The position numbers were made by a program, and so were the translations under genes. Positions 903 through 18,635 of a DNA stretch of 26,057 nucleotides are shown here, one piece after another (position 1 is the first letter of the stretch; every line of letters starts with the position of its first letter). This stretch comes from a virus, in the IMG/VR virus record IMGVR_UViG_3300002835_000957, positions 1 through 26,057 of that record; one strand, written 5' to 3'. The notes beneath the pieces are model-generated. The model was not told the origin of the DNA. It did no database searches and saw nothing but the letters and a program-made list of their open reading frames with translations.

Positions 903-2124
903 TGGACATTGCTACCATTATAGTATTTGAGATGGCACTTGACATATAAGCAAATTCGGTCGGAGTAGTAACAAATACAGCATTAGAGATATACTTATTG
1001 AAAGTGTCAGTAGATGTGACTACTGCATTTCCATTTCTACTTGCAACGATTCCACTTGAATTATAAATCAAGGCTAGTTTGTTCGTAGGTTGTTGCGGTC
1101 CGCAGTTGAGTGTATTGATATAAACATTATTAGATGCATCTACATAGACACGATTATTGGCGGTTGTAGAGTTAAGACTGAATACAGTAGCACCAGCAGA
1201 CACTGCACTCCACTTAAGATACAAAGAACCTTCGTCCTGATCATATGTATAGAATGGAACATACTCATTCAGCTGAAGGTTCTTAAGATAGAGTCTGTTG
1301 CCAATGTCACCAAACCCAGTCGAGATAATAACAAGACCATCCGTTGTTGTTGAGAACACAATTGAGAATGCAGTCTCTACACCGGTTGCAATATATCCAC
1401 CAAGATCATTCTCGCCAAATAGTGTTCCTACTTCAATTCTAGAAGGTCCGGTGTCTCTTTCCGGAAGATATGACTCAACATCAGAAGCAGTGTAATACGC
1501 ATTCCCTGAAAGTATATATCTTTTACCGGCAGTAAGATTTAATTGATATGATTGGCAGTTATCCTTCTGTCCAGATGACACGACTAGTTGATAGTCACCT
1601 TCAATCGACTTAACACTACCATTGATTGGCGTATCCAATAGCGTGATATTTCCATTTTTAATCGGACCCATCACACCAGATGTTACATAAACGTTTGCAT
1701 CTGTAAAGATGTTGTTATTGGTCTGCCTAACAGTCATATTGTTGGAACCGTTAAAATAGATTCCAATGCCTTCGTCAGTCTTGATATTTCTTCCACTCAA
1801 CGTATTCTCGGAGTATAGATTACATACGGTTACAGTTCTCTCGATGCTGAATGTAGTGGGTATAACAGTAGGCGTGACATTAACAGTACCGCTGTTATTT
1901 GCAATCGTTACTGTTAACTCAAGTGGGATGATTCCAGACTTAGCTAGTGCATACTGTTGTTCAGATGATTGAATGCCATCGTGATTGATATCAAGAGTAG
2001 AGTACCATGTTGTATTACCAGCAACTACCTGAATTTTATAGTTAATGACCTTCTCAGTCGGTAACACAAATGTATCTATTACCTGAGAAGAAGTATTAGT
2101 AGATGTATATACTGTATTTGTCAT
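895..2124 (-). CDS. Lectin-like phage fibre/adhesin protein (409 aa)
   Basis: No single named family is recognised, but three beta-rich parts can be seen. Residues about 27-95 (IQVVAGNTTWY..., with HDG at 48-50 and a SEQQY turn) match the pattern of a cap domain that also ends the 553-residue fibre at 14671-16332. Residues about 165-285 look like a jelly-roll carbohydrate-binding module, with QLVVSSGQ, YQLNLTAGKRYILSGNAYY and LYLKNLQLNEY. Residues about 290-380 (QDEGSLYLKWSA, TANNRVYVDASNNVYINTL) resemble the concanavalin A-like lectin domains of phage fibres. No signal peptide or membrane segment is visible. The start ATG overlaps the TGA of the chaperone-like gene (ATGA, 2121-2124), and the stop overlaps the next fibre gene. 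A receptor- or glycan-binding role is inferred from fold resemblance only; the structural role is fairly safe from context. Confidence 0.75.
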   Translation of the reverse strand: MTNTVYTSTNTSSQVIDTFVLPTEKVINYKIQVVAGNTTWYSTLDINHDGIQSSEQQYALAKSGIIPLELTVTIANNSGTVNVTPTVIPTTFSIERTVTVCNLYSENTLSGRNIKTDEGIGIYFNGSNNMTVRQTNNNIFTDANVYVTSGVMGPIKNGNITLLDTPINGSVKSIEGDYQLVVSSGQKDNCQSYQLNLTAGKRYILSGNAYYTASDVESYLPERDTGPSRIEVGTLFGENDLGGYIATGVETAFSIVFSTTTDGLVIISTGFGDIGNRLYLKNLQLNEYVPFYTYDQDEGSLYLKWSAVSAGATVFSLNSTTANNRVYVDASNNVYINTLNCGPQQPTNKLALIYNSSGIVASRNGNAVVTSTDTFNKYISNAVFVTTPTEFAYMSSAISNTIMVAMSNV

Positions 2125-2498
2125 TTAATCATATCTTCATTGGGCCATTCAACATAAAATGGAAACCCGCTTTGTTCTGTGACATCACGCAGTGCCTGTC
2201 GATACTCTGTCCACTTATTACTGGTTGTTTCTGGTACATCTCGCCCCTGAGTCCAGTCTGTGGCAGCTAGTCGCGTATTGCGTTCTTTGCGAACATCAAT
2301 CGACAATTGCCCATCGCTTATCGCAGGTTCGTTTATAGCAGGTTCAACTCCTGGAATCCAATCGCCTGCTTCCCAACGGTAACATCCTTCTGTCGGTGGC
2401 GGCAAATATGTCCAATTTGCGCTTACGCCTTCACTGGGTTCAATTTCTTTTACCGCACCTAAAAAACCGTTTAATTTGATTTCATACACTTTGATCAT
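2121..2498 (-). CDS. Tail assembly chaperone-like protein (125 aa)
   Basis: The open frame extends upstream to 2603, but the start chosen is ATG at 2498-2496 (MIKVYEIKLNGF). It is preceded by a good ribosome binding site, GGGAG about six bases upstream, and it begins one base after the stop of the giant tip gene. The longer version would overlap that gene in another frame. The C-terminal half carries the pattern of the phage tail assembly chaperone family: R.TRLAATDWTQ, DVPETTSNKW, EYRQALRDVTEQSGFPF and a final WP (residues about 70-122). Family members are typically encoded beside tail fibre genes and assist fibre or tail assembly. The N-terminal half has a YLPPPTEGCYRWEAGDW segment, perhaps a small tail-binding domain. 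Fibre genes lie on both sides. It probably helps fold or trimerise one of them, most likely the giant protein just upstream; that partner is inferred. Confidence 0.78.
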   Translation of the reverse strand: MIKVYEIKLNGFLGAVKEIEPSEGVSANWTYLPPPTEGCYRWEAGDWIPGVEPAINEPAISDGQLSIDVRKERNTRLAATDWTQGRDVPETTSNKWTEYRQALRDVTEQSGFPFYVEWPNEDMIK

Positions 2499-2499
2499 T

Positions 2500-5400
2500 T
2501 TAAGCTCCCGCATAAATGTATTCATTAGTAGCCAAACCAACAACATGTTGTGGTACAAAGAATGTAGTTGAAGTGTTATATGAAAACAGTGGATACTCAA
2601 CAATTGCGTTAACGACCGTAGCGGCTGTACTAGCGAAAGAACCTAGCGTAAGTGCCCGTGTATCACTTGCGCGTACTGGAGTCTCTTTGGAATTTACAGT
2701 CAGTCCAATATTTCCAGGAATTGCCAAGCTAAGACGAGAATATGGAGTTATCATATTATCACTTGCCTTCCAAATAAGTCCGCTTGATCCATTAATGTTG
2801 AAGCCATAACCGTTGTAAGTTCCAAGTGCAGTAATGGTTTGTGACGGACCAGAAATGATATTAGAGGCATCTGGAGTATGGAAAGATGACCAATACCAAT
2901 ATCCTCCAGTATACACTACAGATGTAGCAGTTTGTCCTATGCCGTAAATCGGCAACCAAGTGGCGCCGCCATCTGTTGTTTTATAAACTCCATAGTTTGC
3001 TGCACCAACAACCAGTGTTGTACCGTCAGTTCCAGAAGGTCCTACTGCCTGCTGTCCAGCAGGGAAGTTACCAGAAGACCATGTCAGGCCACCATCAGAT
3101 GAATAGTAAACGGTCTGCGTATTAAGTGCATCAGCAACAGCAGCGCTGCCAGTGAAAAATGTCAATTTGCCACTGGCATACGCGATATCAGTAAGACTGC
3201 TGACCCGTTTAAATACTCGAGTAGTGCTAGTGTCGGTACTTTGACTGACATCGGCATAATGTGTCCAAGTGTCTCCATCTGTAGACCTATATACCCCTAC
3301 AGGTCCAGTGGAATTAATGTATACGTTAATATAAGCGGACCCATCATATGTTATATACCCATGCACAGCAGTGCGACTTGGTGTAAACGTAATACCATCG
3401 GATGATGTATATACAATCGGATAATTAGCAATCGCCGCGGCAAAATATTTATCGTTTATCTTTTGAAGAGTATTAAAACTGCTTGTACGGTACGTAACTT
3501 GGTCTGCAGAACGCCAAGTTACTCCGTCAGATGATAATGAGATATAGTTTGGAGCTAGCCTGATATACTTACCACCGAGATACACGACCCTACTCATTGT
3601 TATCTCGTCTGGAAACGCCACTCGAACCCATGTAACTCCACTATTAATACTTTTAAAATACCCGCCACCGTTTTGCGTTAGTATAAAGGCTAGCCATTGA
3701 GTCCCGTCATATATGACATTCCCGAGAACAACTGTGTTAACGCCCAATGTGCGGTTAGTCCACGTTGTTCCATTAGTAGATGTATAGACTGTTCCAGATA
3801 AGCCTACCAACACTAAAACGTTATTAGTACTATCAAATGCAATATCACTGAATGTCGCCGATCCCGCGGACCTCGAGGTCCATGTTGTACCATCTGGAGA
3901 TGTATACAACAGACCACCCACTCCTATGGCGACAAAAAGATTGATTGTCCCGGCTGCCCAAATTACCTTATAAAACTGGGTGCTGCCAGCAGAACGTGTT
4001 GTCCACGTCAGACCATCAGAAGAAGTATAACATGCACCCGCTGCTCCAACTGCAACAAACTGACCATTATCAAAAATCACATCGCCAAACGCTTGTGCGC
4101 CTGCAGCACGGGATGTCCAAGTCGCAAGGTTAGGTGAGGAAAATATGTTTCCAGAGTTTCCAACAGCCACGTAGACACCTGCACCATAAGCAAACTTATT
4201 GATGCCTGTCGTTGTCGGCGTGGTTCGAACAGTCCAGTCTATACCATTAGTAGATGTTGCAATGCTAGCTGTAGAATTGCCTCCACCAATTAGGTAGTTT
4301 CCATTTAGGTAAGCAATACAATTCCCTGATGAGAACGCACTAGTACCTGTGAGTGACGTAGCAGTCCAACTATTGCCATCAGAAGAATATAACGGTAGGC
4401 CACGCGAACTAACCATAACATACTGATTACTGCCATTATACGCAACTTGTCTGCCACCAGTAGTAAGAGATACGTTAAAAGCTATGGTAAAGCCTGGCTG
4501 ATAAGCTTCTCGAGTACCACCTGCAAGAACAACTATACCCATGTCCCCAATAGCAACGGCCTTGCCATTAACATCATGAAAAGCAAAAATACCGCCGCCA
4601 CTGGCATCTCGTTTTAATGTCCAAGTGGTTCCGTCTGCAGAAGTTGCATAAAGTCCGTCAGTTGATCCTCCGGCATAGAAAGTCGAACCAACATACCCAA
4701 CACTTAGTACCTGAGCATTTGGTATATTTGTTGCCCGCATCGCCCAAGTAAGACCGTCAGTAGAAGTATGTATCCCAACTAAAGTTGCAGCAAGGAAAAT
4801 CCCCCCGCCGTACACTACCTGAACGACGTTGCTTGCGCCGACAGAGCGAGATGTCCATGTGATACCATTTGGCGATGTAACCACGTTCCCAGTACTGATG
4901 TTGCCATAGGCTACATAGAGTGAGTTTGCGTATATAACATCTTGGTATGCGCAACTAATCGGGTTGGTTTGTGTGGTCCAGTTAATGCCATCCGGTGAAG
5001 TAATTATAGATCCTGCACCGGTGCTACTAACCGCGACAAATTGTCCTCCAGCATAGATAACTTTAAGATATACGGCTGTAAGTGTGGCCGGAGCAGCTTG
5101 AGTAAAGGTTATAAGATCAGTTGAATAAAGTATAGCACCAGAGTACGCGATTACATAAACACCAGCGCCATATGCAATAGAATTGGCGGATGTAGTGCCG
5201 CCGGATGCTGAAGCTTGCATAGTCCTGGCCGACCAGTTTATACCATCAGGAGACACCAAAAGTGTTGCACCGTTATTAGATGGCGTAGTTGTTGCAACAA
5301 ATTGATTGTTTACATACCGTATGCCAGTGATAGTAGATATTGATGCATTTGGTGGTACAGCAGAAAAAGACGTGCCGTCTGTTGTATAAATTATTCTTGG

Positions 5401-7923
5401 TGTTTGTGTAGTACCAAAAACCCATGCGGTGCCGCTAGTCGCCATAGAGTATAACGCCCTCCCGCCAGTGTTTGTGAATGAACACGGAACAGGTATCTGG
5501 GCTTTTGGCATTGCTACCGGCGCGCCTATATCTGGTACATCTCCTAGCGCTGCGGCCAATGCTGAATATGATGCTTTGCTGTAATATTTACCTGTCTGAA
5601 GCCACGTGCCACTTGTTGGTGCCGTAGTTGATTGAACTACTTGACCAAGGGATGGTGTAAATCCGCCACCACCACCACTTCCAGCGGCCCAATAAGCAGA
5701 ACCAGATCCATTAGAAGTAAGTACGTCTCCAGAAGAACCAAATGTGCCATTTGCAACAATGCTTGATGTATTGCTTAGTATTAAATGATCCGCTGCACTT
5801 AGATTGACATTAGAATTGAATGTAGCAATTCCACCGACAGTGAGTGTAGTCGATACGTTAGCAAACCCAGTAATAGTTGTATTACCGGCATCTAATGTTC
5901 CTTGTATATTTGTAGATCCACCAACCGATAGTTTATCAGCCGGCGCAGTATTGGCTATACCGACATTTCTACTCGGGGCAATACGCATCGCCTCGTCGGC
6001 TATTAATGTTCCATTAGCATGGAATATAACTGGACGTGCAGCTTTTGTACCAATTGAAAGACTGGTATCTGATGCGTAAAGATATCCATCCCCGGCACCA
6101 ACAACTGTATAGTTAGCATTACTATAATTAGTACTGTTAATACCAAGATCTATATAACCAAAAGTGTTATTACCCGAATCGTTTGTAACAACAAGATCAG
6201 ATGATGCATTAATGCCGGTATTGGCATTTTGAATTACAACCTGAACAAATGTATTCTGCTGACCATCAAGTTCAACAAGTGCAGTAGCACCAAAGTCAAA
6301 TGCTACTGGATTTCCGACATTTAGTTTTGTCTGAACCTGTGCATTATTGACTGTTAATTTTGTTAGTGACTTGTCATAAACAAATGACGTAGAACCGTTT
6401 GCAGCGCCGGCATCATTAAATATGACTTGTTGATTTGTTCCAGCAACCGGTCCAGCAGAACCGGTATATCCAATTACACCCTGACTTCCAGTAAAGCCAA
6501 TAACTCCATTAGAACCGGTGAAACCAGTTACACCATTAGATCCAGTATAACCAATAACTCCTTGGCTACCTGTAAAACCAATAACTCCATTGGATCCGGT
6601 GTAACCGGTTACACCATTAGAACCAGTATAACCAATAACTCCTTGGCTACCTGTAAACCCAGTTACACCATTGGATCCGGTGTAACCAATAACACCTTGT
6701 ATGCCTTGAGAGCCAGTATATCCGATTGCGCCTTGTATACCTTGTGATCCAGTAAATCCAGTATCACCTTTATCACCAGTTCTAGTGAATGTTGCTACTG
6801 TTGAGAGGTTGTTTGCAAAAGAATAACCACCACTTAACCAGGCTATTGGAACTTCAAAATAGTTACCGGTATGACTGTGATTTCCAACAATGGAGAACTG
6901 TGAAAAGTTGAGACTATTGGCTGCTTCAACCACGTTGAAGTTGCCTTTAATAGCCGATGTAGAGTCATCGATTGTTGTCAGATAGTTATAAGAATTGGCA
7001 CCCGTGCTATCAAGAAAACTGATATACATAACAGAAGCTGAAGCAAGATTTGCAGTATTAAATTTTACAACCCCACTACCAGGATCTGTGTTTACAGTAT
7101 TTGAAGAGAATGTATAGTCAAATGATGCACCACCGAATGATCCAGTATCACCCTTGGATCCAGTATAACCAAGGGAACCAGCATATCCTGTAACACCATT
7201 AGAACCAGTATATCCAATTACGCCGTTGGAACCGGTAAAACCAATTATACCTTGGGAACCTGTATATCCAATTATGCCTTGACTACCAGTAAAACCAATA
7301 ACTCCCTGGCTACCAGTATAACCAATTACACCTTGACTACCAGTAAAGCCAATAATACCTTGTATACCCTGGCTACCGGTAAAACCAATAACACCATTAG
7401 ATCCAGTAAATCCAGTTACACCATTCGATCCGGTGAAACCGGTTATACCTTGTGAACCAGTATAACCTTGTATACCCTGAGATCCAACAAACCCAATAAC
7501 ACCAATTTCGCCCTTAGAACCGGTATACCCGATTACACCATTAGAACCAGTATACCCGATTACACCATTAGAACCAGTATACCCGATTACACCATTAGAA
7601 CCTGTATATCCTTTATCACCTTGGATACCTTGCGATCCGGTAAATCCAGCATTATCAGTCCAATAAATACTGCTGCCGTTTGATGACAGTGTTTGGCCTG
7701 GTGTACCTGGAGTACCATTGGCAACAAGTGTAGTAATAGAAGAAGTGGTTATATTTGCACCGATCTCGAATAGAACCGAGCCATTCGATGATATAACTTT
7801 CTTATCTGTGAGATTGATGGATAGCTCGCCGGGATTAATATACCGAGTATTTGCTGGGTTAGTTGACGGCAGTCGGCCGGAGACAAACGTTCTCTTATGG
7901 ATAATCGGTGTCGTATTAGCCAT
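2500..7923 (-). CDS. Giant collagen-like / beta-propeller tail-tip fibre (1807 aa)
   Basis: The start ATG at 7923 follows a strong AGGAGA ribosome binding site. Domains in order: residues 10-50 resemble the N-terminal domain of phage tropism determinants (PGELSINLTDKKV); 70-92 a SNGSSIYW linker; 93-264 collagen-like Gly-X-Y repeats; 265-382 a globular beta domain; 383-492 a second collagen-like block; 500-680 fibre modules (GDGYLYASDTSLSIGT, DEAMRIAPSRNVGI); 730-750 another SNGS..YW linker with a Gly hinge. Residues 757-797 (WLQTGKYYSKASYSALAAALG) look like the first part of a tail-collar-type domain. About 825-1690 hold roughly 20 blades of about 42 residues, each closing with an Asp-box-like S-x-D-G-x-x-W. 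The end, about 1770-1807 (STTFFVPQ...YIYAGA), looks like the rest of the collar-type tip. It is the first gene left of the plus-strand cassette and has its own late promoter. The role is probably host recognition; no catalytic site was found. Confidence 0.85.
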   Translation of the reverse strand: MANTTPIIHKRTFVSGRLPSTNPANTRYINPGELSINLTDKKVISSNGSVLFEIGANITTSSITTLVANGTPGTPGQTLSSNGSSIYWTDNAGFTGSQGIQGDKGYTGSNGVIGYTGSNGVIGYTGSNGVIGYTGSKGEIGVIGFVGSQGIQGYTGSQGITGFTGSNGVTGFTGSNGVIGFTGSQGIQGIIGFTGSQGVIGYTGSQGVIGFTGSQGIIGYTGSQGIIGFTGSNGVIGYTGSNGVTGYAGSLGYTGSKGDTGSFGGASFDYTFSSNTVNTDPGSGVVKFNTANLASASVMYISFLDSTGANSYNYLTTIDDSTSAIKGNFNVVEAANSLNFSQFSIVGNHSHTGNYFEVPIAWLSGGYSFANNLSTVATFTRTGDKGDTGFTGSQGIQGAIGYTGSQGIQGVIGYTGSNGVTGFTGSQGVIGYTGSNGVTGYTGSNGVIGFTGSQGVIGYTGSNGVTGFTGSNGVIGFTGSQGVIGYTGSAGPVAGTNQQVIFNDAGAANGSTSFVYDKSLTKLTVNNAQVQTKLNVGNPVAFDFGATALVELDGQQNTFVQVVIQNANTGINASSDLVVTNDSGNNTFGYIDLGINSTNYSNANYTVVGAGDGYLYASDTSLSIGTKAARPVIFHANGTLIADEAMRIAPSRNVGIANTAPADKLSVGGSTNIQGTLDAGNTTITGFANVSTTLTVGGIATFNSNVNLSAADHLILSNTSSIVANGTFGSSGDVLTSNGSGSAYWAAGSGGGGGFTPSLGQVVQSTTAPTSGTWLQTGKYYSKASYSALAAALGDVPDIGAPVAMPKAQIPVPCSFTNTGGRALYSMATSGTAWVFGTTQTPRIIYTTDGTSFSAVPPNASISTITGIRYVNNQFVATTTPSNNGATLLVSPDGINWSARTMQASASGGTTSANSIAYGAGVYVIAYSGAILYSTDLITFTQAAPATLTAVYLKVIYAGGQFVAVSSTGAGSIITSPDGINWTTQTNPISCAYQDVIYANSLYVAYGNISTGNVVTSPNGITWTSRSVGASNVVQVVYGGGIFLAATLVGIHTSTDGLTWAMRATNIPNAQVLSVGYVGSTFYAGGSTDGLYATSADGTTWTLKRDASGGGIFAFHDVNGKAVAIGDMGIVVLAGGTREAYQPGFTIAFNVSLTTGGRQVAYNGSNQYVMVSSRGLPLYSSDGNSWTATSLTGTSAFSSGNCIAYLNGNYLIGGGNSTASIATSTNGIDWTVRTTPTTTGINKFAYGAGVYVAVGNSGNIFSSPNLATWTSRAAGAQAFGDVIFDNGQFVAVGAAGACYTSSDGLTWTTRSAGSTQFYKVIWAAGTINLFVAIGVGGLLYTSPDGTTWTSRSAGSATFSDIAFDSTNNVLVLVGLSGTVYTSTNGTTWTNRTLGVNTVVLGNVIYDGTQWLAFILTQNGGGYFKSINSGVTWVRVAFPDEITMSRVVYLGGKYIRLAPNYISLSSDGVTWRSADQVTYRTSSFNTLQKINDKYFAAAIANYPIVYTSSDGITFTPSRTAVHGYITYDGSAYINVYINSTGPVGVYRSTDGDTWTHYADVSQSTDTSTTRVFKRVSSLTDIAYASGKLTFFTGSAAVADALNTQTVYYSSDGGLTWSSGNFPAGQQAVGPSGTDGTTLVVGAANYGVYKTTDGGATWLPIYGIGQTATSVVYTGGYWYWSSFHTPDASNIISGPSQTITALGTYNGYGFNINGSSGLIWKASDNMITPYSRLSLAIPGNIGLTVNSKETPVRASDTRALTLGSFASTAATVVNAIVEYPLFSYNTSTTFFVPQHVVGLATNEYIYAGA
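2854..5451 (-). repeat. About 20 Asp-box-like beta-propeller blades
   Basis: Residues about 825-1690 repeat a unit of about 42 residues: a hydrophobic strand pair (such as VIYAGGQFVAVS) followed by an Asp-box-like turn. Examples are SPDGINWTTQT, SPNGITWTSRS, STDGLTWAMRA, SSDGLTWTTRS, SPDGTTWTSRS, STNGTTWTNRT, SSDGGLTWSSG and TTDGGATW. One unit near residue 1140 has lost the turn. The count would fit about three propellers of six to eight blades; the number per propeller is inferred. Confidence 0.85.
6448..6777 (-). repeat. Collagen-like repeat block 2 of the giant tip fibre
   Basis: Residues 383-492 are continuous Gly-X-Y triplets, mostly as a nine-residue unit G-(F/Y)-T-G-S-(Q/N)-G-(V/I)-(I/T), so the DNA repeats every 27 bases. 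Collagen-like stretches in phage fibres form rigid trimeric rods. X/Y positions are dominated by Phe/Tyr, Thr, Ser, Gln and Asn with almost no Pro. Confidence 0.93.
7132..7647 (-). repeat. Collagen-like repeat block 1 of the giant tip fibre
   Basis: Residues 93-264 are Gly-X-Y triplets with the same nine-residue unit as block 2 (for example GYTGSNGVI repeated three times near residues 105-131) and occasional charged triplets (GDKG, GSKGE, GSKGD). Near-identical 27-base units lie in tandem around 7520-7600, so copy number could change by slippage or recombination. Confidence 0.93.
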
Positions 7924-7993: not shown

Positions 7994-8001
7994 TATTTAT
8001 A
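7994..8001 (-). promoter_or_regulatory. T4-type late promoter (TATAAATA) for the giant fibre gene
   Basis: The minus strand reads exactly TATAAATA here, the T4 late-promoter octamer recognised by gp55-programmed RNA polymerase. It lies about 70 bases upstream of the fibre ATG. T4 late promoters need no -35 element. Transcription should start a few bases downstream, near 7985. Confidence 0.7.
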
Positions 8002-8023: not shown

Positions 8024-10075
8024 ATGAAAATTGCATTTATTGACACTCTTGGTTTGACTTATGACGGATCAACACTAGAAAAACGCGGACTAGGTGGATC
8101 AGAATCCGCTGTTATCCGAATGTCACAGGAGTTGGCCAAGATAGGATTTCAGGTAACTGTCTATAATGACTGTACCTCTGACGACTCAGAACCTGGTTTT
8201 TATGATGGTGTAGAATATCGGCCAGTTTCTATTGCTCAAACTGTTCCGCGACAATTTGATGTTTGCATTGTCTCAAGATCTATTAACCCCATTGCTGATA
8301 GTTGGGAAGTTCCTACAAATGCTAAACACGTGTGTCTTTGGATGCATGATACATTTTGCGAGGGTGATAATCAGATCGAGCATCTTATTAATCAAGGTAA
8401 GATTAATGAGATCTTTACATTGTCGGACTGGCATACTGGATATGTCACCCATTGCGACCATGGCTTTCGCCGTAACTTCGATGTCCTAAAGAACCATATC
8501 TTTCAGACTCGTAACGGTATCGGTAACATGAATCCTGGTTGGATCGACGTACGTGACAAAGATCCGAACCTATTTGTGTTCAACGCCTCTGTTACCAAAG
8601 GAATGGTTCCTCTAGTCAAGCAGATCTGGCCTGAGGTTAAACGACGTATTCCTGATGCTAAGTTAAAGATCATCGGTGGATACTATAAGTTCCGTGAAGC
8701 TGCAGGTCCAGATCAACAAGAAAAAGATTGGGCCGAGATGGCTCTTCAACATGGAGATAATATCGAGTTTACCGGTGTGATTACCCAGCAGGAGATCTCA
8801 AACATTTTGCATGATGCCAGTTATATGATTTATCCTGCAGGATTTCCTGAAACATTTGGTATCTCTACACTAGAGGCATTAGCCCATAACGTTCCTTTGA
8901 TTACATGTCGTTTCGGTGCTCTAGAGGAGACTGCAATAGATCTTGCATCATGGAAGATCAACTATCCGGTTGAACCAAACTGGGCATTACCATGGCTTGA
9001 TCAGAATATTCAAGTCGATATCTTTGTCAACACAGTTGTTGATGCATACAACAACAAGTATCTGCACCAGCAGAAGATGTATGCATGCAACCAGGTCAAG
9101 GATATCTGCACCTGGGATACCGTCGCTCTTCAGTGGAAGCAGCATCTATATAAGAAACTTGGCAAGTTCATGGACATTACTGAGTATCGTAGTGTACAGA
9201 AGATCAATAGCCGGGTTCGTAAGGTATTTGGTCGCCGGTTCATGAATCATGAAGAACTAGTAGAGCCGATACACCACAAACCACGATGGATTTCTATTGT
9301 TACTCCGGTATATAATGCCGAGAAGTATATTGCGCGGTGCATTGAATCGGTGGCACAGCAAGATTATAATGACTATATGATGTATATCATCGACGACTGT
9401 TCTACTGATAATACCGTAGAAGTTATTAAGCAAACAATCAATGCCCTTCCTATCGACATTGCCGACAAATTTCAGTTGATTACAAACACCAAGAATAAAG
9501 GTGCCGTGTGTAATCAGATTACAACTATCGAAGGCAATTGTTTAAAAAATGATATCATCATGCTTATTGATGGTGATGATTGGCTAGTTAATAATCCTAA
9601 CATATTTCATATGTACAACAATCTGTACCAGGATGGGGCAGAGTTTACCTATGGTTCGTGTTGGTCATTGGTCGATAATATACCGTTAATTGCACAGGAA
9701 TATCCACCTGAAGTCAAGGCTAGTAAGACGTATCGCGACTATAAGTTTAATTGGAATATGCCATACACCCATCTGCGCACATTCAAGTGGGAACTGATGG
9801 ATGGGTTTATTCATCAGTATGGCCGTGATTCATTCAAGGATGAAGAAGGCAACTGGCTGAAAGCAGGCGGTGATACAGCTGTATTCTATGCCATGATTGA
9901 ACAGGCAAATCCTGATAACATTATCTGCATTCCAGATATCGTGTATAACTATAATGATGCCAATCCTATTAATGACTATAAGGTCAATAGCGATGAGCAG
10001 ACTAAGACTGCTACTAAAGTATTGAACACGACTTCGCCATTCACTCCTGGGCAGATTGATTTGAGACCACTATGA
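8024..10075 (+). CDS. Two-domain glycosyltransferase, GT4-like plus GT2-like (683 aa)
   Basis: The start ATG at 8024 has a GTGGAG ribosome binding site. Residues 1-375 look like a GT-B retaining glycosyltransferase of the GT4 type: a Gly-rich GGSE at 24-27, a FNASVTKGM segment near 186, and the EX7E signature (E276...E284 in FPETFGISTLEALAHNVPL), which contacts the nucleotide-sugar. Residues 421-645 are a GT-A domain of the GT2 type: SIVTPVYNAEKYI at the start, an IIDDCSTDNT nucleotide-binding loop (455-464), and a DGDD motif at 516-519 holding the metal-binding DXD. The protein probably adds two sugars in turn to one acceptor. No signal peptide or membrane segment is visible, so it should act in the host cytoplasm. 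It overlaps the next gene by ATGA (10072-10075), so the two are probably co-translated. Acceptor and sugars are unknown; virion fibres are inferred from location. Confidence 0.88.
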   Translation: MKIAFIDTLGLTYDGSTLEKRGLGGSESAVIRMSQELAKIGFQVTVYNDCTSDDSEPGFYDGVEYRPVSIAQTVPRQFDVCIVSRSINPIADSWEVPTNAKHVCLWMHDTFCEGDNQIEHLINQGKINEIFTLSDWHTGYVTHCDHGFRRNFDVLKNHIFQTRNGIGNMNPGWIDVRDKDPNLFVFNASVTKGMVPLVKQIWPEVKRRIPDAKLKIIGGYYKFREAAGPDQQEKDWAEMALQHGDNIEFTGVITQQEISNILHDASYMIYPAGFPETFGISTLEALAHNVPLITCRFGALEETAIDLASWKINYPVEPNWALPWLDQNIQVDIFVNTVVDAYNNKYLHQQKMYACNQVKDICTWDTVALQWKQHLYKKLGKFMDITEYRSVQKINSRVRKVFGRRFMNHEELVEPIHHKPRWISIVTPVYNAEKYIARCIESVAQQDYNDYMMYIIDDCSTDNTVEVIKQTINALPIDIADKFQLITNTKNKGAVCNQITTIEGNCLKNDIIMLIDGDDWLVNNPNIFHMYNNLYQDGAEFTYGSCWSLVDNIPLIAQEYPPEVKASKTYRDYKFNWNMPYTHLRTFKWELMDGFIHQYGRDSFKDEEGNWLKAGGDTAVFYAMIEQANPDNIICIPDIVYNYNDANPINDYKVNSDEQTKTATKVLNTTSPFTPGQIDLRPL

Positions 10076-11931
10076 AAAATTATGAAAACGATATTGCTGT
10101 AACCTATATTGATAGAGAATGGCCAGATATTGAGAAGGAAATACGTAACCATGTAACAGACTGGTCTGTGTGTATCCAAGCCGGTGGCCACCTTGGGTTA
10201 TATCCTACACGTCTTTCGAAGTTGTTTGGCACAGTACATACATTTGAAGCTGATGCCGGTAACTATCAAAAGCTTGTTGAAAACTGCAGCGATGAAAATA
10301 ACATCGTGTGTTATCATAATGCGTTAAGTGCATATTCTAGAGCAATGGGCATTTGGCGAATGCCTGGTGGAAATACCGGTCAGAATTTTGTTGTTCAAGG
10401 TAACGATGTTGATGCAATCACCATTGACTCTCTTAACTTACCATCGTGTGGTTTGATCCAACTTGATATTGAGAGGCATGAACTGTTTGCGTTGATGGGT
10501 GCAATTGAAACCATTGAAAAGTTCCGGCCAGTTATTATTCTCGAGGGGCCGGAAACAACCAACAATGCATGCAATATTATTTTAGAACAACTCGGCTATG
10601 AGTTTATTGCAAGAGCCGGACAAGATAGTGTATTTGTGTACACAAATTCAGCTGCACCAACTACAGAGTATAGAGATGTTAATATGAAAAAGATTCTAGT
10701 TGCTATTCCTACTGCTCGTTATATCGAACCGGATACATTTAAGTCGATCTATGATTTGGATGTTCCTGCTGGATACGAAATAACGTTTCAGCATTTCTAC
10801 GGATACCGAGTTGACCAGGTACGTAATCTAATATGTGATTGGGTTGCACGCGGTTATGATTATTTGCTGGCAGTCGATCATGACGTGACCTTTGCACCGG
10901 ATACACTTAGGAAGTTACTGGATCACAATGTGGATCTGGTATCAGGTGTCTATAGGCAGCGACTAGAGCCACAGGCGATTGAGATCTACGATTTAAATCA
11001 GCAGCGTATGACTATCGATCAGATCTATGGAAAAGATCTTGTTAGGATCGGCGCCTGTGGATTTGGTTGTGTTCTTGTCAAAAAGGAAGTTATCGTCGGA
11101 GTTGGATATCCACAGTTCGAATATCATCCAGCGCTCGATCACGGTAAAACTGTCAGCGAGGATACCGACTTCTGCAGAAAGGCAACAAACAACGGATTTG
11201 AACTATGGTGTGATCCATCCATTCTTTGTGGCCACATCGGTTCGACTACAATGTACGTCCAAACTCCTGAAGTTGTAATCAATCCAGTTGAAACAAGATT
11301 GCGTGGATTGTCTCTACGAGACGATCTTCCAAGAGACCATGTTGATTATCTCAAGGGCATGGATATCAATCCAAAGGTGATCTATGACATCGGTGCATGC
11401 ATTATGCACTGGACGAAGGAAGCCAATAGAATTTGGCCTGATTCTAAGATTGTTATGTTCGATGCTATGGACCATGCCGAGTTTCTTTACAAAGAATCAG
11501 GCCATGAGTATTACTGTGGCCAAGCTATCGGCGATGTGTCTGGTAAGTCTATCGATTTCTATGAGAAGCCAATGGATCCTGCAGGTAATAGTTACTATAA
11601 GGAAAACTCAGCACATTTTACTGAAGCTGATAAAGTAACAAAGACCATGATTACACTAGATGATTTGGTCACCAGCCGCCGTATACAACTGCCAGATCTT
11701 GTCAAGATTGATGTGCAGGGAGCTGAACTGGATGTTCTACGCGGTGCACAGTATACTTTAAAGGACTGTAACGATATCATTATTGAGATGCAGCATGAAG
11801 AGTATAATCTTGGCGCGCCTCAGGTTGCAGAGGTTACAGAATATCTTAACATGTTAGGATTTAAGTTAGTAAGTGTAATTCGTACTACAGGCGCAGATGG
11901 CGACTATCACTTTGCCCGGGCAAAGTTGTAA
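10072..11931 (+). CDS. Tripartite FkbM methyltransferase / GT-A / FkbM methyltransferase (619 aa)
   Basis: Residues about 20-192 form an FkbM-like SAM-dependent methyltransferase: CIQAGGHLGLYP (34-45) as the SAM loop, HTFEA (56-60), and LDIERHELFALMGA (131-144) in the place of the usual DVEGAE segment. Residues 205-395 are a GT-A fold: MKKILVAIPTARYI, AVDHDV with a D-H-D metal motif at 269-271, and SEDTDFCRKA (362-371). Residues about 425-617 form a second FkbM-like domain: VIYDIGACIMHW (436-447) and VKIDVQGAELDVLRGA (544-559), the latter close to the family consensus. The second domain's SAM loop lacks the usual A-N-x-G, so its activity is less certain. FkbM enzymes O-methylate sugars and similar substrates. 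Met205 could be a relic start of a once separate gene, but no good ribosome binding site precedes it. It probably works with the preceding glycosyltransferase to assemble and cap a methylated glycan. Confidence 0.85.
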   Translation: MKNYENDIAVTYIDREWPDIEKEIRNHVTDWSVCIQAGGHLGLYPTRLSKLFGTVHTFEADAGNYQKLVENCSDENNIVCYHNALSAYSRAMGIWRMPGGNTGQNFVVQGNDVDAITIDSLNLPSCGLIQLDIERHELFALMGAIETIEKFRPVIILEGPETTNNACNIILEQLGYEFIARAGQDSVFVYTNSAAPTTEYRDVNMKKILVAIPTARYIEPDTFKSIYDLDVPAGYEITFQHFYGYRVDQVRNLICDWVARGYDYLLAVDHDVTFAPDTLRKLLDHNVDLVSGVYRQRLEPQAIEIYDLNQQRMTIDQIYGKDLVRIGACGFGCVLVKKEVIVGVGYPQFEYHPALDHGKTVSEDTDFCRKATNNGFELWCDPSILCGHIGSTTMYVQTPEVVINPVETRLRGLSLRDDLPRDHVDYLKGMDINPKVIYDIGACIMHWTKEANRIWPDSKIVMFDAMDHAEFLYKESGHEYYCGQAIGDVSGKSIDFYEKPMDPAGNSYYKENSAHFTEADKVTKTMITLDDLVTSRRIQLPDLVKIDVQGAELDVLRGAQYTLKDCNDIIIEMQHEEYNLGAPQVAEVTEYLNMLGFKLVSVIRTTGADGDYHFARAKL

Positions 11932-11978: not shown

Positions 11979-12245
11979 TTAGAACTCGCCGCCGTCAATA
12001 GCTCCAACAATGAATTGTTGAGTAAACTGTTTAATCTCATACTTGTCTGATGTTTGATTGTAGATTAATACGGCACCTTCGGTGACATTAACTTCATCAA
12101 CATCGGGCAGATCTTCGATACTATTAATCTGATACTCACGAAACTGATTCTTGACAGTCAGAGTAGTTGGATTAAGAATAGGTGTTGTATTGTCAACCTT
12201 AACGGTCAACTTTGTCTCTCTATTGATCTTGGCGTTTAATGTCAT
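11979..12245 (-). CDS. Small virion-associated protein (88 aa)
   Basis: This small acidic protein has no membrane segment. The middle contains the DLPDVDEVNVTEGAVLIYNQ pattern (residues about 43-62), followed by SDKYEIKQF and a terminal VGAIDGGEF. In T4-like aquatic phages this 'I.DL.DVD..... G.VL.YN....KW/KYE' motif is common in fibre and baseplate-associated proteins, and a DGGxF ending is common too. The start overlaps the TGA of the 109-residue gene (ATGA, 12242-12245), suggesting coupled synthesis. It is the last minus-strand gene before the plus-strand cassette. The structural role is inferred from context and motif; the precise location in the virion is unknown. Confidence 0.68.
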   Translation of the reverse strand: MTLNAKINRETKLTVKVDNTTPILNPTTLTVKNQFREYQINSIEDLPDVDEVNVTEGAVLIYNQTSDKYEIKQFTQQFIVGAIDGGEF

Positions 12246-12571
12246 CTTGTCACCTGTGGTGTAACCGTGACGATTCCCTCAAGCAATCTAGTAATAGCAC
12301 CATTAGGATCCGTCAACTCACAGTCGTAGACATAACGGCCGGATGAAACATTTGCAGTAGTGTTAGCATTCATCGACAAAGTTACAGTGCCGATAGTTGG
12401 AGAGATGGACACTACAAATGCAACTGAATTAGAGGAGGTATAATGCTTACGCAGTTGCGCAGCACCAGAATACCCGGTCAGATTGACAATATCATCATTT
12501 TCGTCAGTGACGTTGATCGTTGTCTGGAACGTAGTTCCCTGATCGATATCTAAATTAGCTTTAATTGCCAT
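12242..12571 (-). CDS. Ig-like-fold structural protein (109 aa)
   Basis: The protein starts at ATG 12571, with GGAAGAG four bases upstream as ribosome binding site. The sequence (IDQGTTFQTTINVTDENDD, LTGYSGAAQLRKHY, GRYVYDCELTDPNG, LEGIVTVTPQVTR) follows the pattern of small beta-sandwich proteins found repeatedly in the structural modules of aquatic T4-like phages. It resembles the N-terminal domain of siphophage baseplate upper proteins, in which an 'IDQGsdf...i.v.d..g.p.dLtGy.a..qiR' opening is typical. It may join a fibre to the baseplate. It is coupled to the downstream 88-residue gene by ATGA and separated from the upstream 196-residue gene by only 17 bases. The beta-sandwich and structural role are well supported by motif; the attachment role is inferred. 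Confidence 0.72.
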   Translation of the reverse strand: MAIKANLDIDQGTTFQTTINVTDENDDIVNLTGYSGAAQLRKHYTSSNSVAFVVSISPTIGTVTLSMNANTTANVSSGRYVYDCELTDPNGAITRLLEGIVTVTPQVTR

Positions 12572-12588: not shown

Positions 12589-13179
12589 TTATGAAGTTGT
12601 ATCTAACTGATAAGTTATAGTTGCAGCTGCCGCCGTAACACCAGTTGAAATTCTTCTTATAGTCACATAAAGATCGATATTGAAAGTTCGGTTAGCAACA
12701 GCGCTTAGTGTCCAACCAGCAGCAACGCCGCCTAATGTAACCCATGTATCAAGCGGTGAAACTGAACTTGACCAAGTCCCGAGAGCAACAGATCTGGTTG
12801 CAAATATCTCATAATAAGAAAGATTTGTTGAATCTAATGTGCCACCAACACCAATTAATGAAAATACATTTTCATAAAAAAATGCTGGATTGTTGTCTGC
12901 GTATTCGAATGCACGACCATCTGTAGAAACACCAAATGTCACTGAACCTGGCGAACCACCTGTAAAATTAGAGATGCCGCGCGCCGATAATCCAACATAC
13001 GGAATCGATTTACCATTGAATGAGCTCATCGTCAAACCTGACGCAGTAGTACCGATTCCTGTCATTGCACCATCGTTTGGTACGTATGACCCACCTCTAT
13101 TATAGCCGCTAAAGGCGTTGCCTCCACTAAATACAGATTTGATGGAAGATAATGATGGAGTAGAAACTATCCCAGGCAT
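12589..13179 (-). CDS. Hypothetical virion protein downstream of collagen-like fibre (196 aa)
   Basis: The family is not recognised. The start ATG (MPGIVSTPSLSSI) shares its A with the TAA of the collagen-like fibre gene (TAATG at 13177-13181), so translation is probably coupled. Residues 15-85 are rich in Gly, Ser, Asn and Tyr and look loosely folded. Residues about 95-196 look like a beta-sandwich, with FFYENVFSLIGVGG, NLSYYEIFATRS, DTWVTLGGVAAGW and IDLYVTIRRIS. There is no signal peptide or membrane helix. It may be an accessory or tip protein of the fibre encoded just upstream; that rests only on the coupling and on the absence of any enzyme motif. Confidence 0.65.
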   Translation of the reverse strand: MPGIVSTPSLSSIKSVFSGGNAFSGYNRGGSYVPNDGAMTGIGTTASGLTMSSFNGKSIPYVGLSARGISNFTGGSPGSVTFGVSTDGRAFEYADNNPAFFYENVFSLIGVGGTLDSTNLSYYEIFATRSVALGTWSSSVSPLDTWVTLGGVAAGWTLSAVANRTFNIDLYVTIRRISTGVTAAAATITYQLDTTS

Positions 13180-14663
13180 TATCTATTCTCCAACTTCTCT
13201 ACTTTAGCATTCAATTCTTTAATAGCTTCAATAAGTACAGCAGTTAACTTGTTATAGTTAACAAGTTTATACCCATTTTCGCGATTGGTGTGAACAAATT
13301 CTGGATATACTTGTTCAATTTCCTGGGCGATCAAACCAATTTCTTCATTAGATCCAAATCCCATATTTCTTGCAGTATCGTTCCATGAATACCGCACGCC
13401 ATTTATTTTAGTAACATTATTTAACGCATTTGTTATATTGCCGAATATGTTCTTTAAGTTCTTATCTGATGAAAGTACAAAGTCGCCGGCGTATACAGTC
13501 GCAGAATAACCATCACTTAAAGTTGAGCCGGTTGATGCATAATAAGCTACTGCACCGGCACTAGTACCATTGTTAACAATACCTACACCAGCAGATCCAG
13601 TATAACCAATAATGCCCTGTGATCCAGTATAACCAATAATACCTTGCGATCCAGTATATCCGACACCTTGTGAACCTTGTGATCCAGTATAACCAATAAT
13701 ACCTTGTGATCCAGTATATCCGACTCCTTGTGATCCTGTAAATCCAGCAGATCCATTAAATCCATTAGTACCAGCAGATCCAGTATAACCAATAATACCT
13801 TGCGATCCTGTAAATCCAACAGACCCATTAAATCCATTAGTACCAGCAGATCCGGTGTATCCAATAATACCTTGTGATCCAGTATATCCAATAATGCCCT
13901 GCGATCCTGTAAATCCAACAGACCCATTAAATCCATTAGTACCAGCAGATCCAGTATAACCAATAACACCCTGCGATCCGGTATAACCAATAATACCTTG
14001 TGATCCTGTAAATCCAACAGACCCATTAAATCCATTAGTACCAGCAGACCCGGTATAACCAATAATACCTTGTGATCCTGTGTATCCAACACCTTGTGGT
14101 CCAGCAGAACCAGTAAAACCAGTTACACCATTAGATCCAGTAAATCCAGTTGGTCCAACATTTAGTGCCCAAGATGAATCGGTACCATTAGTTCTTAAGT
14201 AATACCCATTGACTGCAGTGTTCTGTGTTGGTAGGAGATTATTTAGTGCAGCATTTTGTGTTGTAGCATTAGTACCACCTTGGCCGATGTTTAGAACACC
14301 ATTCGAGATTGATGAAGCATTAACAGTAATACCTGTTGCATTTGCTATAATACCAGAGCCAGCTCTAATATTAATTGCTACGTCATTTGCAGTAACAATA
14401 GAGTTGGATATGTTGATATTGCCAGCCCAAATATCAAATGTTCTGGTTGTGTTACCTAACGCTTTGCCGTTGGCTGTAGGAATTAAACTACCATCGATCG
14501 ATGTGTTGCTATATGTAAGATTTCCTACAACAAACACATCACCATTAACAGTAAGAGACTGTCTGACAATAACATGGGCATTAACAGTGGTGTTCGCCTG
14601 GAATAGCGAGTCACCTCCTGTTACTAAAAACCCGTTGTCTACTTTGAAATTAGTATTTGCCAT
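13179..14663 (-). CDS. Collagen-like tail fibre with S74-type chaperone (494 aa)
   Basis: The start is ATG 14663, seven bases after the previous stop, with AAGG just upstream. Residues 1-165 are beta-rich fibre modules (FQANTTVNAHVIVRQSLTVN, NGKALGNTTRTFDIWAGNI). Residues about 170-360 are collagen-like Gly-X-Y with the same GFTGSQGII / GYTGSAG units as the giant tip fibre plus a GTNGFNGSVG variant. Residues 398-494 match the intramolecular chaperone (peptidase S74) domain: SSDKNLKNIFG, NGVRYSW, EIGLIAQEIEQVYPEFV, YKLVNYNKLTAVLIEAIKEL. Ser399 and Lys404 have the Ser-(x4)-Lys spacing of the autocleavage dyad, so the chaperone should trimerise the fibre and then cut itself off before Ser399. 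The last 25 residues form a short leucine-rich coiled coil. This is a confident side-fibre or spike assignment; its host target is unknown. Confidence 0.92.
   Translation of the reverse strand: MANTNFKVDNGFLVTGGDSLFQANTTVNAHVIVRQSLTVNGDVFVVGNLTYSNTSIDGSLIPTANGKALGNTTRTFDIWAGNINISNSIVTANDVAINIRAGSGIIANATGITVNASSISNGVLNIGQGGTNATTQNAALNNLLPTQNTAVNGYYLRTNGTDSSWALNVGPTGFTGSNGVTGFTGSAGPQGVGYTGSQGIIGYTGSAGTNGFNGSVGFTGSQGIIGYTGSQGVIGYTGSAGTNGFNGSVGFTGSQGIIGYTGSQGIIGYTGSAGTNGFNGSVGFTGSQGIIGYTGSAGTNGFNGSAGFTGSQGVGYTGSQGIIGYTGSQGSQGVGYTGSQGIIGYTGSQGIIGYTGSAGVGIVNNGTSAGAVAYYASTGSTLSDGYSATVYAGDFVLSSDKNLKNIFGNITNALNNVTKINGVRYSWNDTARNMGFGSNEEIGLIAQEIEQVYPEFVHTNRENGYKLVNYNKLTAVLIEAIKELNAKVEKLENR
13584..14156 (-). 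repeat. Collagen-like repeat block of the S74 fibre
   Basis: Residues about 170-360 are Gly-X-Y triplets with two alternating higher-order units: GFTGSQGIIGYTGS and a GSAGTNGFNGSVG spacer that recurs four times with minor changes (GSAGF in the last). The DNA repeats are nearly identical, so length variants by slippage are plausible. Confidence 0.93.
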
Positions 14664-16332: not shown

Positions 16333-16541
16333 TAATTATTCCTGTGTACTAACTGTAGTAAAAGAGTTTTAATATCACGCATCTCATTCTCTACTTCAGC
16401 CATCCTTTTGCAAAGATTATTATTTTTTTTATTTGATTCACGCGCAGCTAAGAACTTTTTATACTCTTCTTCATTGTTGTTTATAATGACACCGGTATCA
16501 GTATCTTTTACATAACCAACATGATTAGTCTGCGCCAACAT
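16332..16541 (-). CDS. Small coiled-coil protein (69 aa)
   Basis: The start ATG 16541 and the stop at 16332 each overlap neighbouring genes by one base (TAATG at both ends), so it is a real gene embedded in the structural operon. Residues 1-25 contain YVKDTDTGVIINNNEEEYKKF, a pattern seen in short T4-like marine phage proteins of unknown function. Residues 35-65 are an amphipathic helix with heptad-like leucines and isoleucines (CKRMAEVENEMRDIKTLLLQL), predicted to form a coiled coil. It is mostly hydrophilic with no membrane segment. It could be a small virion component or an assembly factor bridging the baseplate and the fibre encoded just downstream. No function is established. Confidence 0.72.
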   Translation of the reverse strand: MLAQTNHVGYVKDTDTGVIINNNEEEYKKFLAARESNKKNNNLCKRMAEVENEMRDIKTLLLQLVHRNN

Positions 16542-18613
16542 TATGCAGAGACCCCAATAACTTGAATCTGCTCTACCTTTGGTACAACAAAAGTTGTTTC
16601 AGAGAGAAGAACGATTTTGATCTGCATTGTGTTATATGTATCAAACTCTGTATATGACGATGTCACATATCTGGCAACGTTGTCATAGGCAATATTATTC
16701 CACGCTGCATTCTTATACTTGAGCTTGTCAATAGCTACATCACCAATAATATTTGCATTGGTGATTGGTTTGAATGTAGTAATGGCAGTACTAGTGACCG
16801 TTGCCACGGGAAATACCTGATGGTTTTCAGGAGTAAGAACGCTGTACACTCTGATCAGATCACCAATAGCTATTGTAGATGTTTGATCTACAGTAGTAGA
16901 TATCGAGTTGCTGCCATTTGTTGTTAAGAATGCACCAGTCAGGCCTGCATGAATTTCAGGATACTGTGGAAGACCATACGTATATTCCCAAAGATCGTTT
17001 GGATCCTCTGTGCTATAACGTTCGGTGTTATTCTTAAGTTCCAGCGGGCTCCATGCTTTGTCATCGAAAGATTCTTTATCAGCCGAGTTATGTATTTTAG
17101 CATATAACTTGATCTGCGTACCAGCCGGGCGGTAACCTGCCAGATATACTACGACATCCTCAGCATACTTACCTTCGCCGAATGAGATCTTCTTGGAGAC
17201 ATACTTTGACTTGGCAAGTCCATTGCGATCAACTTCTGTATCATAGTTAGTAATTGTTCCGCGAGTACTCGTATACGTGTTATTGATATCATTCTGATAG
17301 AAGAAGAAATCAAGTTCACCAGAGTTAATATAAGGTACTGAGAATCGATTTGCTTCAGATACTGATACATTGAATGTAATATTGGCTACAGCAGACTTTC
17401 TATTCGTACCGTAGATAGTGGTGTTATCAACCTCTAACGATCTTGAAAGAATATACGACTCACGTGGAGAATTGTTAAACTGTAGCAACTCTAGATTAGT
17501 CGATGTTGTTGGCATCGCATTAGATGAGTTAGCAACGTTATATGTCATTGTGTAGTTAGAAGTAGTAGGATTACCAACCAAGAAGGTTGGCTTGAAGTTA
17601 TCTACTTGGAATCTATCGATCGACACAACATTTGCAGACGAACCAGATCTTACACCAATGATACGTGTACCAGCAACAAACTTGACACTGCTATTTGCAT
17701 TTGAGTCTGATAGGATTACTTTGTTTTTGCTGTAGTCAGTAAAGTAAACAACGCCAACCGGCGGGACCTTGAAGCCGATGCCCACAGCACTGAAACTTGG
17801 ATATTTGTCAACTGTCATCGATGTAGCATTGGTAATATTAGTAATAGTCAGAATATCTCTGCTACTATTAGCTAATACAATCTTATCATCAATAGCATAA
17901 CTCGTAAATGATGTGGCTGATCCAACAATAGTATTACTAGATGATGTGAATGTTACAGTACCTGTGGCATTAGCAATGTTTTGATATACCCATTCACCAC
18001 CTGTGAATGTTCCTGATACTGTGTTATCAATCGTAAAAAATTCATACTCTTTATTAACCAATGGAATGGTTACATTGTTAGAGATAAACTGTGCTACTCT
18101 GACCTTGAACTTAAGATCTTTATTGCTGAACTTGTCATAGGTATTGAAGTTTGTTGCCTTATAAAGGAAACCATCAAATCTTGATTGCGAACCTGGCGAT
18201 GCAACGTTAGTAACACCACCTGCACCAATGATACGGTCGCCTTGGACATTTGTCCAGATATCATATGCAGGATCATTGTACTTTACAACAATTCCATAAT
18301 AACGACCTGTCTTAAGGAGAACAGGATTATTAAATCCAACTACGGTTGGAGTCTGTGCATCGTTACTAAGATTGACCGAATCATAATCAATAGCTCTTGT
18401 AGAATGCAAGAGTGTCAGATTTGGATTTGGATCGCCATTTTCTACTTCACAGATCCAGACATTAATTCCTGGCTTTGCAGTACCACTGACATTTGCATTC
18501 TCTAGCGGTTTAGCTTTAAAGAACAGATCTATAGATGTCAGCATGATTTCAGCTACATTTGCAACTGTATCAGGATTTACGTAAAACGTTTGGATGTAGT
18601 CAAAATTCGACAT
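16541..18613 (-). CDS. Structural protein, probable baseplate/fibre component (690 aa)
   Basis: The frame could be read from TTG at 18616, but the ATG at 18613 (MSNFDYIQTFYVNP) is preferred because GAGG lies five bases upstream. The opening (QTFYVNPDTVANVAEIMLTS, IDLFFKAKP, INVWICEVENGDPNP, residues about 7-65) matches a beta module found near the C-terminus of DUF4815-type cyanophage proteins ('AQTF.V....V.....DLFF...P....I..V..G.P'). Residues about 150-175 (RFDGFLYKATNFNTYDKFSN) and 560-690 (EYTYGLPQYPEIHAG, YNTMQIKIVLLSETTFVVPKVEQIQVIGVSA) look like further beta domains. Its partner is probably the DUF4815 protein, encoded immediately upstream. A virion structural role is secure by context; the exact position in the baseplate is inferred. 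It has a candidate late promoter of its own. Confidence 0.75.
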   Translation of the reverse strand: MSNFDYIQTFYVNPDTVANVAEIMLTSIDLFFKAKPLENANVSGTAKPGINVWICEVENGDPNPNLTLLHSTRAIDYDSVNLSNDAQTPTVVGFNNPVLLKTGRYYGIVVKYNDPAYDIWTNVQGDRIIGAGGVTNVASPGSQSRFDGFLYKATNFNTYDKFSNKDLKFKVRVAQFISNNVTIPLVNKEYEFFTIDNTVSGTFTGGEWVYQNIANATGTVTFTSSSNTIVGSATSFTSYAIDDKIVLANSSRDILTITNITNATSMTVDKYPSFSAVGIGFKVPPVGVVYFTDYSKNKVILSDSNANSSVKFVAGTRIIGVRSGSSANVVSIDRFQVDNFKPTFLVGNPTTSNYTMTYNVANSSNAMPTTSTNLELLQFNNSPRESYILSRSLEVDNTTIYGTNRKSAVANITFNVSVSEANRFSVPYINSGELDFFFYQNDINNTYTSTRGTITNYDTEVDRNGLAKSKYVSKKISFGEGKYAEDVVVYLAGYRPAGTQIKLYAKIHNSADKESFDDKAWSPLELKNNTERYSTEDPNDLWEYTYGLPQYPEIHAGLTGAFLTTNGSNSISTTVDQTSTIAIGDLIRVYSVLTPENHQVFPVATVTSTAITTFKPITNANIIGDVAIDKLKYKNAAWNNIAYDNVARYVTSSYTEFDTYNTMQIKIVLLSETTFVVPKVEQIQVIGVSA

Positions 18614-18635
18614 CAATTCCTCGTAATCTTTTGTT

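Follow-up and report, generated by a model that had tools for sequence, protein, structure and literature searches.

A glycosyltransferase–methyltransferase cassette of uncultured aquatic phages tracks a G[YF]T collagen repeat and probably acts on virion fibres

The viral record IMGVR_UViG_3300002835_000957 of the IMG/VR database was analysed over its whole length of 26,057 bp (the window), which is itself a genome fragment and holds a T4-like structural module with its genes read on the minus strand. Within the module, two plus-strand genes, P1 and P2, overlap through an ATGA at positions 10072–10075, and the fibre genes on either side of them are all on the minus strand. P1 consists of glycosyltransferase (GT) domains of the GT4 and GT2 types and P2 of a GT-A domain between two FkbM methyltransferase domains; a preliminary description of this DNA, which had placed five such domains in two ATGA-coupled genes opposite the fibre genes, was accurate in coordinates, strands and domains alike (Table 1). 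As set out below, this cassette and a collagen type rich in Gly-Tyr-Thr and Gly-Phe-Thr triplets (G[YF]T) come and go together among phages, which suggests that the viruses put sugars on their own fibres. P1 and P2 are therefore regarded as a probable phage-encoded O-glycosylation system that would attach a glycan to the collagen-like fibres of the virion.

Both P1 domains match Pfam profiles above the curated cut-offs (GT4, PF13692/PF00534, with PF13692 at 1.1e-12; GT2, PF00535, at 1.5e-20), as do the two FkbM stretches of P2 in Pfam and NCBIfam (PF05050/TIGR01444; 93.2 and 110.3 bits). The middle GT-A domain of P2 had no Pfam match; it matches phrog_1574 at 1.5e-20, and A197 of Sulfolobus turreted icosahedral virus (STIV) is both its top structural match in the PDB (1.1e-10) and its only PDB sequence-profile match (4e-6). 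Confident AlphaFold models of P1 (predicted local distance difference test, pLDDT, 92.2; predicted template modelling score, pTM, 0.90) and of P2 over residues 204–619, a stretch comprising the GT-A and second FkbM domains (pLDDT 95.4), were obtained. When searched with Foldseek, the GT4 part of P1 grouped with MshA, WaaG and related GT4 enzymes (GT-B matches) and the GT2 part with chondroitin synthase; by sequence, the second-best PDB molecule for the GT2 domain is named GalT1 (5hea). The GT4 motif E276-x7-E284, together with D516-G-D518 and D617 of the GT2 domain, is invariant in 64 homologous sequences, and D66-x-D68 and E160-D161 of the GT-A domain (numbered as in the modelled fragment) are invariant in 46. 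Judged by sequence, P1 is predicted to combine a retaining GT4 domain of GT-B fold with an inverting GT2 domain of GT-A fold bearing a DXD motif and a catalytic Asp, and P2 to belong twice over to the FkbM methyltransferases.

Phage GTs are often assigned by default to DNA glucosylation (e.g. PMC10202952), and enzymes that glycosylate modified bases as part of DNA hypermodification were considered here. Such a role is highly improbable for P1 and P2, as their folds match sugar-polymer GT4 and GT2 enzymes and the genes reside in the fibre module, away from replication genes. Nor do the homologous cassettes appear to sit beside DNA-modification genes, a possibility that the preliminary description had raised: the thymidylate-synthase/hydroxymethylase family (PF00303) was present in 4 of 36 cassette-bearing records, many of them fragments, with 3 matches over the cut-off. 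The AGT family (PF11440) gave no match, but its positive control was also silent and this result carries no weight.

Relatives of P1 numbered 109 in a first scan of IMG/VR and at least 577 in a profile-based scan. Only eight weak, partial matches were present among 50,697 phage records, and because the matches in cultured phages were partial, at 25–33% identity, no isolated host system was found for the full cassette. A search of 84,980 bacterial species genomes returned a single match, which is probably a phage contig in a metagenome-assembled genome, and the two close models in BFVD come from uncultured phages and are annotated by domain names only. The order GT4-GT2-GTA is conserved in all 52 distinct cassettes. 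In 23 of these the P1 open reading frame (ORF) exceeds 840 aa, long enough to include GTA, and the enzyme reaches 1584 aa, sometimes as a single polypeptide. A methyltransferase was recognised in 39 of the 52 and none in the other 13; the methyl step is therefore optional and the three sugar transfers form the conserved core. Thus the five-domain set of the preliminary description is present in this genome, but its FkbM pair is an optional part. The GT4-GT2-GTA cassette is carried by a large undescribed family of aquatic phages. FkbM alone was rejected as a pointer to fibres, as its relatives in Rhizobium/Ochrobactrum phages sit among unrelated or replication genes. A possible exception within the P1 family, with sugar-donor genes of its own, was noted by eye in record L065 (L065:635-6811), where a P1 homologue seems to share an operon with ORFs resembling a cytidylyltransferase, a P-loop sulfotransferase and a heptosyltransferase; no collagen occurs within the 15.5 kb covered.

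The rods of the flanking fibres contain 157 Gly-X-Y triplets, 95 in the 1807-aa fibre (27 of them G[YF]T) and 62 in the 494-aa fibre (15 of them G[YF]T). These rods hold 53 Ser, 56 Thr and 21 Asn, so that the 'hundreds' of such residues reported earlier for the rods apply to the whole fibres and not to the rods. Thr occupies the Y position of 52 of the 157 triplets, 42 of these being G[YF]T, which makes it a candidate acceptor only. Lys is rare in the rods and the cassette includes no Lys-hydroxylase. Across cassette-bearing loci, G[YF]T accounts for 20% of triplets, twice the expectation from independent use of the X and Y residues. The concern that homologous cassettes might occur mainly in phages lacking collagen was not borne out. 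Selection by P1 alone gave 30 distinct loci of 12 kb or more; a collagen ORF was present in 29 and a G[YF]T collagen in 28, the nearest collagen ORF being on the opposite strand in 24. The cassette lies within 1 kb of collagen in 21 of 37 distinct loci and within 3 kb in 26 of 37. A GT gene adjoining a collagen-like gene, the arrangement known from BclA3 and SgtA, is hence observed here.

To sample fibres blind to the enzyme, contigs were chosen by the DNA pattern of either G[YF]TGS repeats or Gly-Pro-X (GPx) repeats, with records of at least 25 kb compared; all counts are among the matches listed. Full-length members of the P1 family (536–1185 bits) were present in 30 of 45 G[YF]T-picked records of this length, as against none of 49 GPx-picked records, approximately 36 of which reach 25 kb (30/45 versus 0/36, Fisher 2.7e-11, or 1.6e-10 with identical records collapsed). 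Four of the GPx-picked records had generic GT matches only, at no more than 62 bits. A second G[YF]T batch, chosen among records with no visible cassette, was left out of these counts. The GPx pattern by itself disfavours an aromatic X residue, and comparison on a common genomic backbone is the fairer control for composition. Relatives that share the backbone and lack the cassette, with the absence of P1 checked across whole records, have GAQ, GPQ or GAT collagen or no collagen. A tree was built from the 691-aa structural protein (46 rows, of which 40 were scored), and the state of the cassette changes on it at least 8 times. Well-supported branches provided 7 independent pairs; in 6.1 of these on average G[YF]T collagen shifts in the same direction as the cassette, and in none does it shift in the opposite direction (sign test, median p 0.031, range 0.016–0.125). 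Furthermore, of 23 records examined around P1, 10 lack G[YF]T collagen in the roughly 8 kb nearest to P1 and yet have it elsewhere; the link is therefore more than one block of genes moving together.

Phages with this collagen and no P1 point in the same direction. In 4 of 14 such records a GT2 protein unrelated to the P1 family adjoins the G[YF]T collagen gene, combined with tetratricopeptide repeats (TPR) and a methyltransferase in L587, with TPR and a second GT2 domain in L590 and with Methyltransf_24 in L591, and present as GT2 alone in L589. From sequence, this looks like convergent use of GTs on one repeat, with a methyltransferase in two cases. In the isolated cyanophages S-CBWM1 and S-CAM7, a GT4-type gene lies directly behind a GAT/GPT/GST collagen gene. 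That of the Synechococcus phage S-CBWM1 (L617:8899-10952) begins 92 bp past a GAT/GPT-rich collagen tail fibre gene, and in the Synechococcus phage S-CAM7 (L615:8014-13455) a collagen-like fibre gene precedes a GT4-type gene, a hypothetical gene and a 2-oxoglutarate-Fe(II) (2OG-Fe(II)) oxygenase, possibly a hydroxylase and glycosyltransferase pair for phage collagen. In the archaeal Methanobacteriales virus vir323 (L269:7381-9520), a gene related to the P2 GT-A domain (34% identity) is located one gene from a GDT/GAT collagen-like tail gene. Given the GTs at GPx, S-CBWM1 and S-CAM7 collagens, phage collagen glycosylation may reach beyond the P1 family, and G[YF]T may be the preferred repeat of one enzyme family.

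Several observations weigh against fibre glycosylation by the cassette. GT2 genes also occur near about 6 of 36 GPx-type collagens; a GT beside a fibre is therefore partly generic, and mere adjacency was not taken as proof. When the tree is restricted to collagen-bearing phages, 3 independent pairs are left, of which about 2 agree, a result that is not significant and too few to decide. G[YF]T is nearly absent from the sequence covered of the cassette-positive records L101 and L291, the cassette-negative L591 is rich in G[YF]T, though with its different GT-methyltransferase, and in some co-directional phages the cassette is away from the collagen. Most of the records compared are fragments. 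The underpowered collagen-only comparison, along with the variability of the region, would also suit the absence of any functional link, with a recombination hotspot co-locating the genes and G[YF]T collagen serving as a marker of lineage or habitat. This is very unlikely, as it leaves aside the repeated concordant changes on the tree, the association at record level that persists with the genes more than 8 kb apart and the finding, in phages that lack the P1 family, of non-homologous GT-methyltransferase fusions next to G[YF]T collagen.

Enzymes of this kind might instead be directed at the host surface, building or altering an envelope glycan (e.g. the O-chain of lipopolysaccharide) and excluding competing phages, with their placement in the fibre region explained through host recognition. 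Pelagimyophage GTs encoded in the hypervariable tail-fibre region were interpreted in this way (PMC7029224), polysaccharide synthesis commonly involves FkbM, GT2 and GT4 domains, and the NCBIfam resemblances of P1 are mostly to polysaccharide GTs, far below cut-off. However, neither protein was found to contain a membrane segment (19-residue hydropathy peaks at 1.05 in P1 and 1.61 in P2), and no GtrA-type flippase was found in the 36 cassette-bearing records, control genomes being positive, so that the GtrA flippase and polyprenyl-linked GT typical of O-antigen conversion do not occur together in them. Purely host-directed enzymes would not predict that the cassette covaries with the G[YF]T type, nor do they account for one collagen type tracking it across lineages, and we consider this explanation unlikely. 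Quite unlikely, too, is the glycosylation of another virion protein, such as the capsid, tail tube or baseplate, with G[YF]T collagen a merely correlated trait. In mycobacteriophages, glycans occur on capsid and tail-tube proteins (as cited in PMC12619734), some relatives carry the cassette beside very large non-collagen structural genes, and the major capsid gene of podovirus ctKR88 (L611:1656-11375) is directly followed by a cluster of three GT-like genes with a methyltransferase gene and one resembling hyaluronan synthase. In the P1 family, by contrast, the covarying trait is the collagen repeat sequence itself, and the collagen fibre is the next gene in most loci. The decoration of the phage's own fibres with a presumed glycan, as suggested in the preliminary description, is thus supported by comparative evidence, both from blind sampling and from the tree.

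In the proposed mechanism, fibre chains that are unfolded or assembling in the host cytoplasm late in infection would serve as acceptors. One domain, most likely the retaining GT4, would use a host nucleotide-sugar to place the first sugar on the Y-position Thr of G-[YF]-T, after which the GT2 and GT-A domains would attach a second and third sugar. The FkbM domains, where present, would O-methylate sugar hydroxyls, probably capping the chain. Short glycans would then recur at regular spacing along the trimerised rods and might add stiffness, act as a shield or adjust adsorption. The sequence in which the domains act, the identities of the sugars and the choice of Thr over Tyr or Ser as acceptor are guesses. 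A wider proposal, which we put forward tentatively and hold to be somewhat less than an even chance, is that of a viral glycosylation code, in which a GT4-GT2-GTA(-FkbM) enzyme in hundreds of uncultured aquatic phages reads a G-[YF]-T(-G-S) sequon to yield dense, methyl-capped fibre collagens, while GT-methyltransferase fusions unrelated to this enzyme would have arisen for that repeat in other phages.

Table 1. Position and assignment of the cassette and neighbouring genes in the window
Feature	Position	Strand	Matches and evidence
P1, GT4 (residues ~1–390) + GT2 (~420–660) glycosyltransferase	8024..10075	+	Pfam, PHROGs, AlphaFold, Foldseek
P2, FkbM (1–198) + GT-A (204–400) + FkbM (410–619)	10072..11931	+	PF05050 x2, TIGR01444 x2, phrog_8156, phrog_1574
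Tail fibre assembly chaperone (Phage_tail_APC / Tfa); real start probably within the listed ORF	2121..2603	-	PF16778 1.2e-20
1807-aa fibre with collagen-like rods, divergent from P1 (gap 100 bp); candidate substrate	2500..7923	-	
Conserved 88-aa protein; gene lies between the cassette and that of the 109-aa protein	11979..12245	-	
Conserved 109-aa protein, backbone marker adjoining cassette	12242..12571	-	phrog_1084, also L-shaped tail fibre assembly phrog_3304
196-aa protein, between 494-aa fibre and 109-aa gene; function unassigned	12589..13179	-	
494-aa fibre, collagen rod + C-terminal Peptidase_S74 intramolecular chaperone; candidate substrate	13179..14663	-	Pfam Collagen 1.1e-24, Peptidase_S74 1.2e-13
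691-aa structural protein, backbone marker for tree	16541..18616	-	
1768-aa structural protein, VrlC-like	18654..23960	-	phrog_358
Baseplate wedge (gp8-like) protein, runs past window end; T4-like structural module	23965..26055	-	phrog_438 6e-59

Read along the minus strand, the module consists of the gp8-like baseplate wedge gene, genes for two large structural proteins, a repetitive fibre, the 494-aa fibre and three small proteins, followed past the cassette by the 1807-aa collagen-like fibre, the fibre assembly chaperone and further fibre genes. Among cultured phages, the 1768-aa protein has its nearest match in Caulobacter phage Cr30 (35% identity over 62%), where only a few short genes separate the 691-aa-like protein from the neck proteins; this interval being nearly empty, the fibres and cassette sit in a variable region. 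A TGGAGA resembling a ribosome-binding site precedes the ATG of P1. The T4-late-like motif TATAAATA occurs as a single copy in the window, at 7994–8001 on the minus strand, approximately 70 bp upstream of the 1807-aa fibre gene and within the divergent gap to P1, a count not above chance for the window. Promoter and terminator scans gave no excess over shuffled sequence. Antisense ORFs of 300–440 aa occur opposite the repetitive fibre f553 (window 14671-16332) and in many relatives (e.g. L011:8815-10017); they are probably artefacts that arise from the repeats and from codon use.

Phage fibres determine host range and are usually modelled as bare protein. If the proposed fibre glycosylation is true, models of adsorption and receptors and structure predictions for widespread aquatic T4-like phages would need revision, and a defined repeat sequon with a compact, order-fixed multi-GT enzyme would become available for collagen glycosylation. 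It also offers an alternative to the default view of phage GTs as DNA- or host-modifying. A GT beside a collagen-like surface protein is already known in bacteria, as is virion glycosylation in phages; the literature searched held no mention of the two in combination, of the multi-domain enzyme family, of the aromatic-Thr type of repeat or of covariation between this repeat and the enzyme.

Among viruses, Mimivirus modifies its own collagen-like proteins via L230, a hydroxylase-glucosyltransferase that acts on hydroxylysine, whereas the cassette described here lacks a Lys-hydroxylase. The collagen and GT gene pairs of S-CBWM1 and S-CAM7, for which no published function was found, share the placement of a GT gene next to a collagen-like fibre gene and differ from the P1 family in having a single GT domain and GAT/GPT/GST collagen. 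Mycobacteriophages bear glycans on virion proteins, as is proposed here, although the targets cited in PMC12619734 are the capsid and tail tube rather than collagen-like fibres. STIV A197, the closest solved relative of the P2 GT-A domain, is essential and has been proposed to glycosylate the STIV capsid protein (PMC10551542); unlike P2 it is a single-domain protein of an archaeal virus, with an acceptor that is itself a proposal. In bacteria, the Fap1 and other serine-rich repeat protein (SRRP) adhesins of streptococci illustrate how GTs encoded in a cluster O-glycosylate a long repetitive surface protein step by step (PMC5207161), there with a serine-rich repeat (SRR) substrate, separate enzymes, no FkbM methyltransferases and no phage. 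In Clostridioides difficile, SgtA is encoded beside BclA3 and adds O-GlcNAc to Thr in its GPT collagen repeats (PMC7157674). That system shares with the cassette a GT gene beside the gene of a collagen-like surface protein, and the Y-position Thr, which is the acceptor there, is the candidate here. It differs in belonging to a bacterial spore exosporium and in using one chain-starting GT on GPT, where the phage cassette would bring three GT domains and methyltransferases to G[YF]T.

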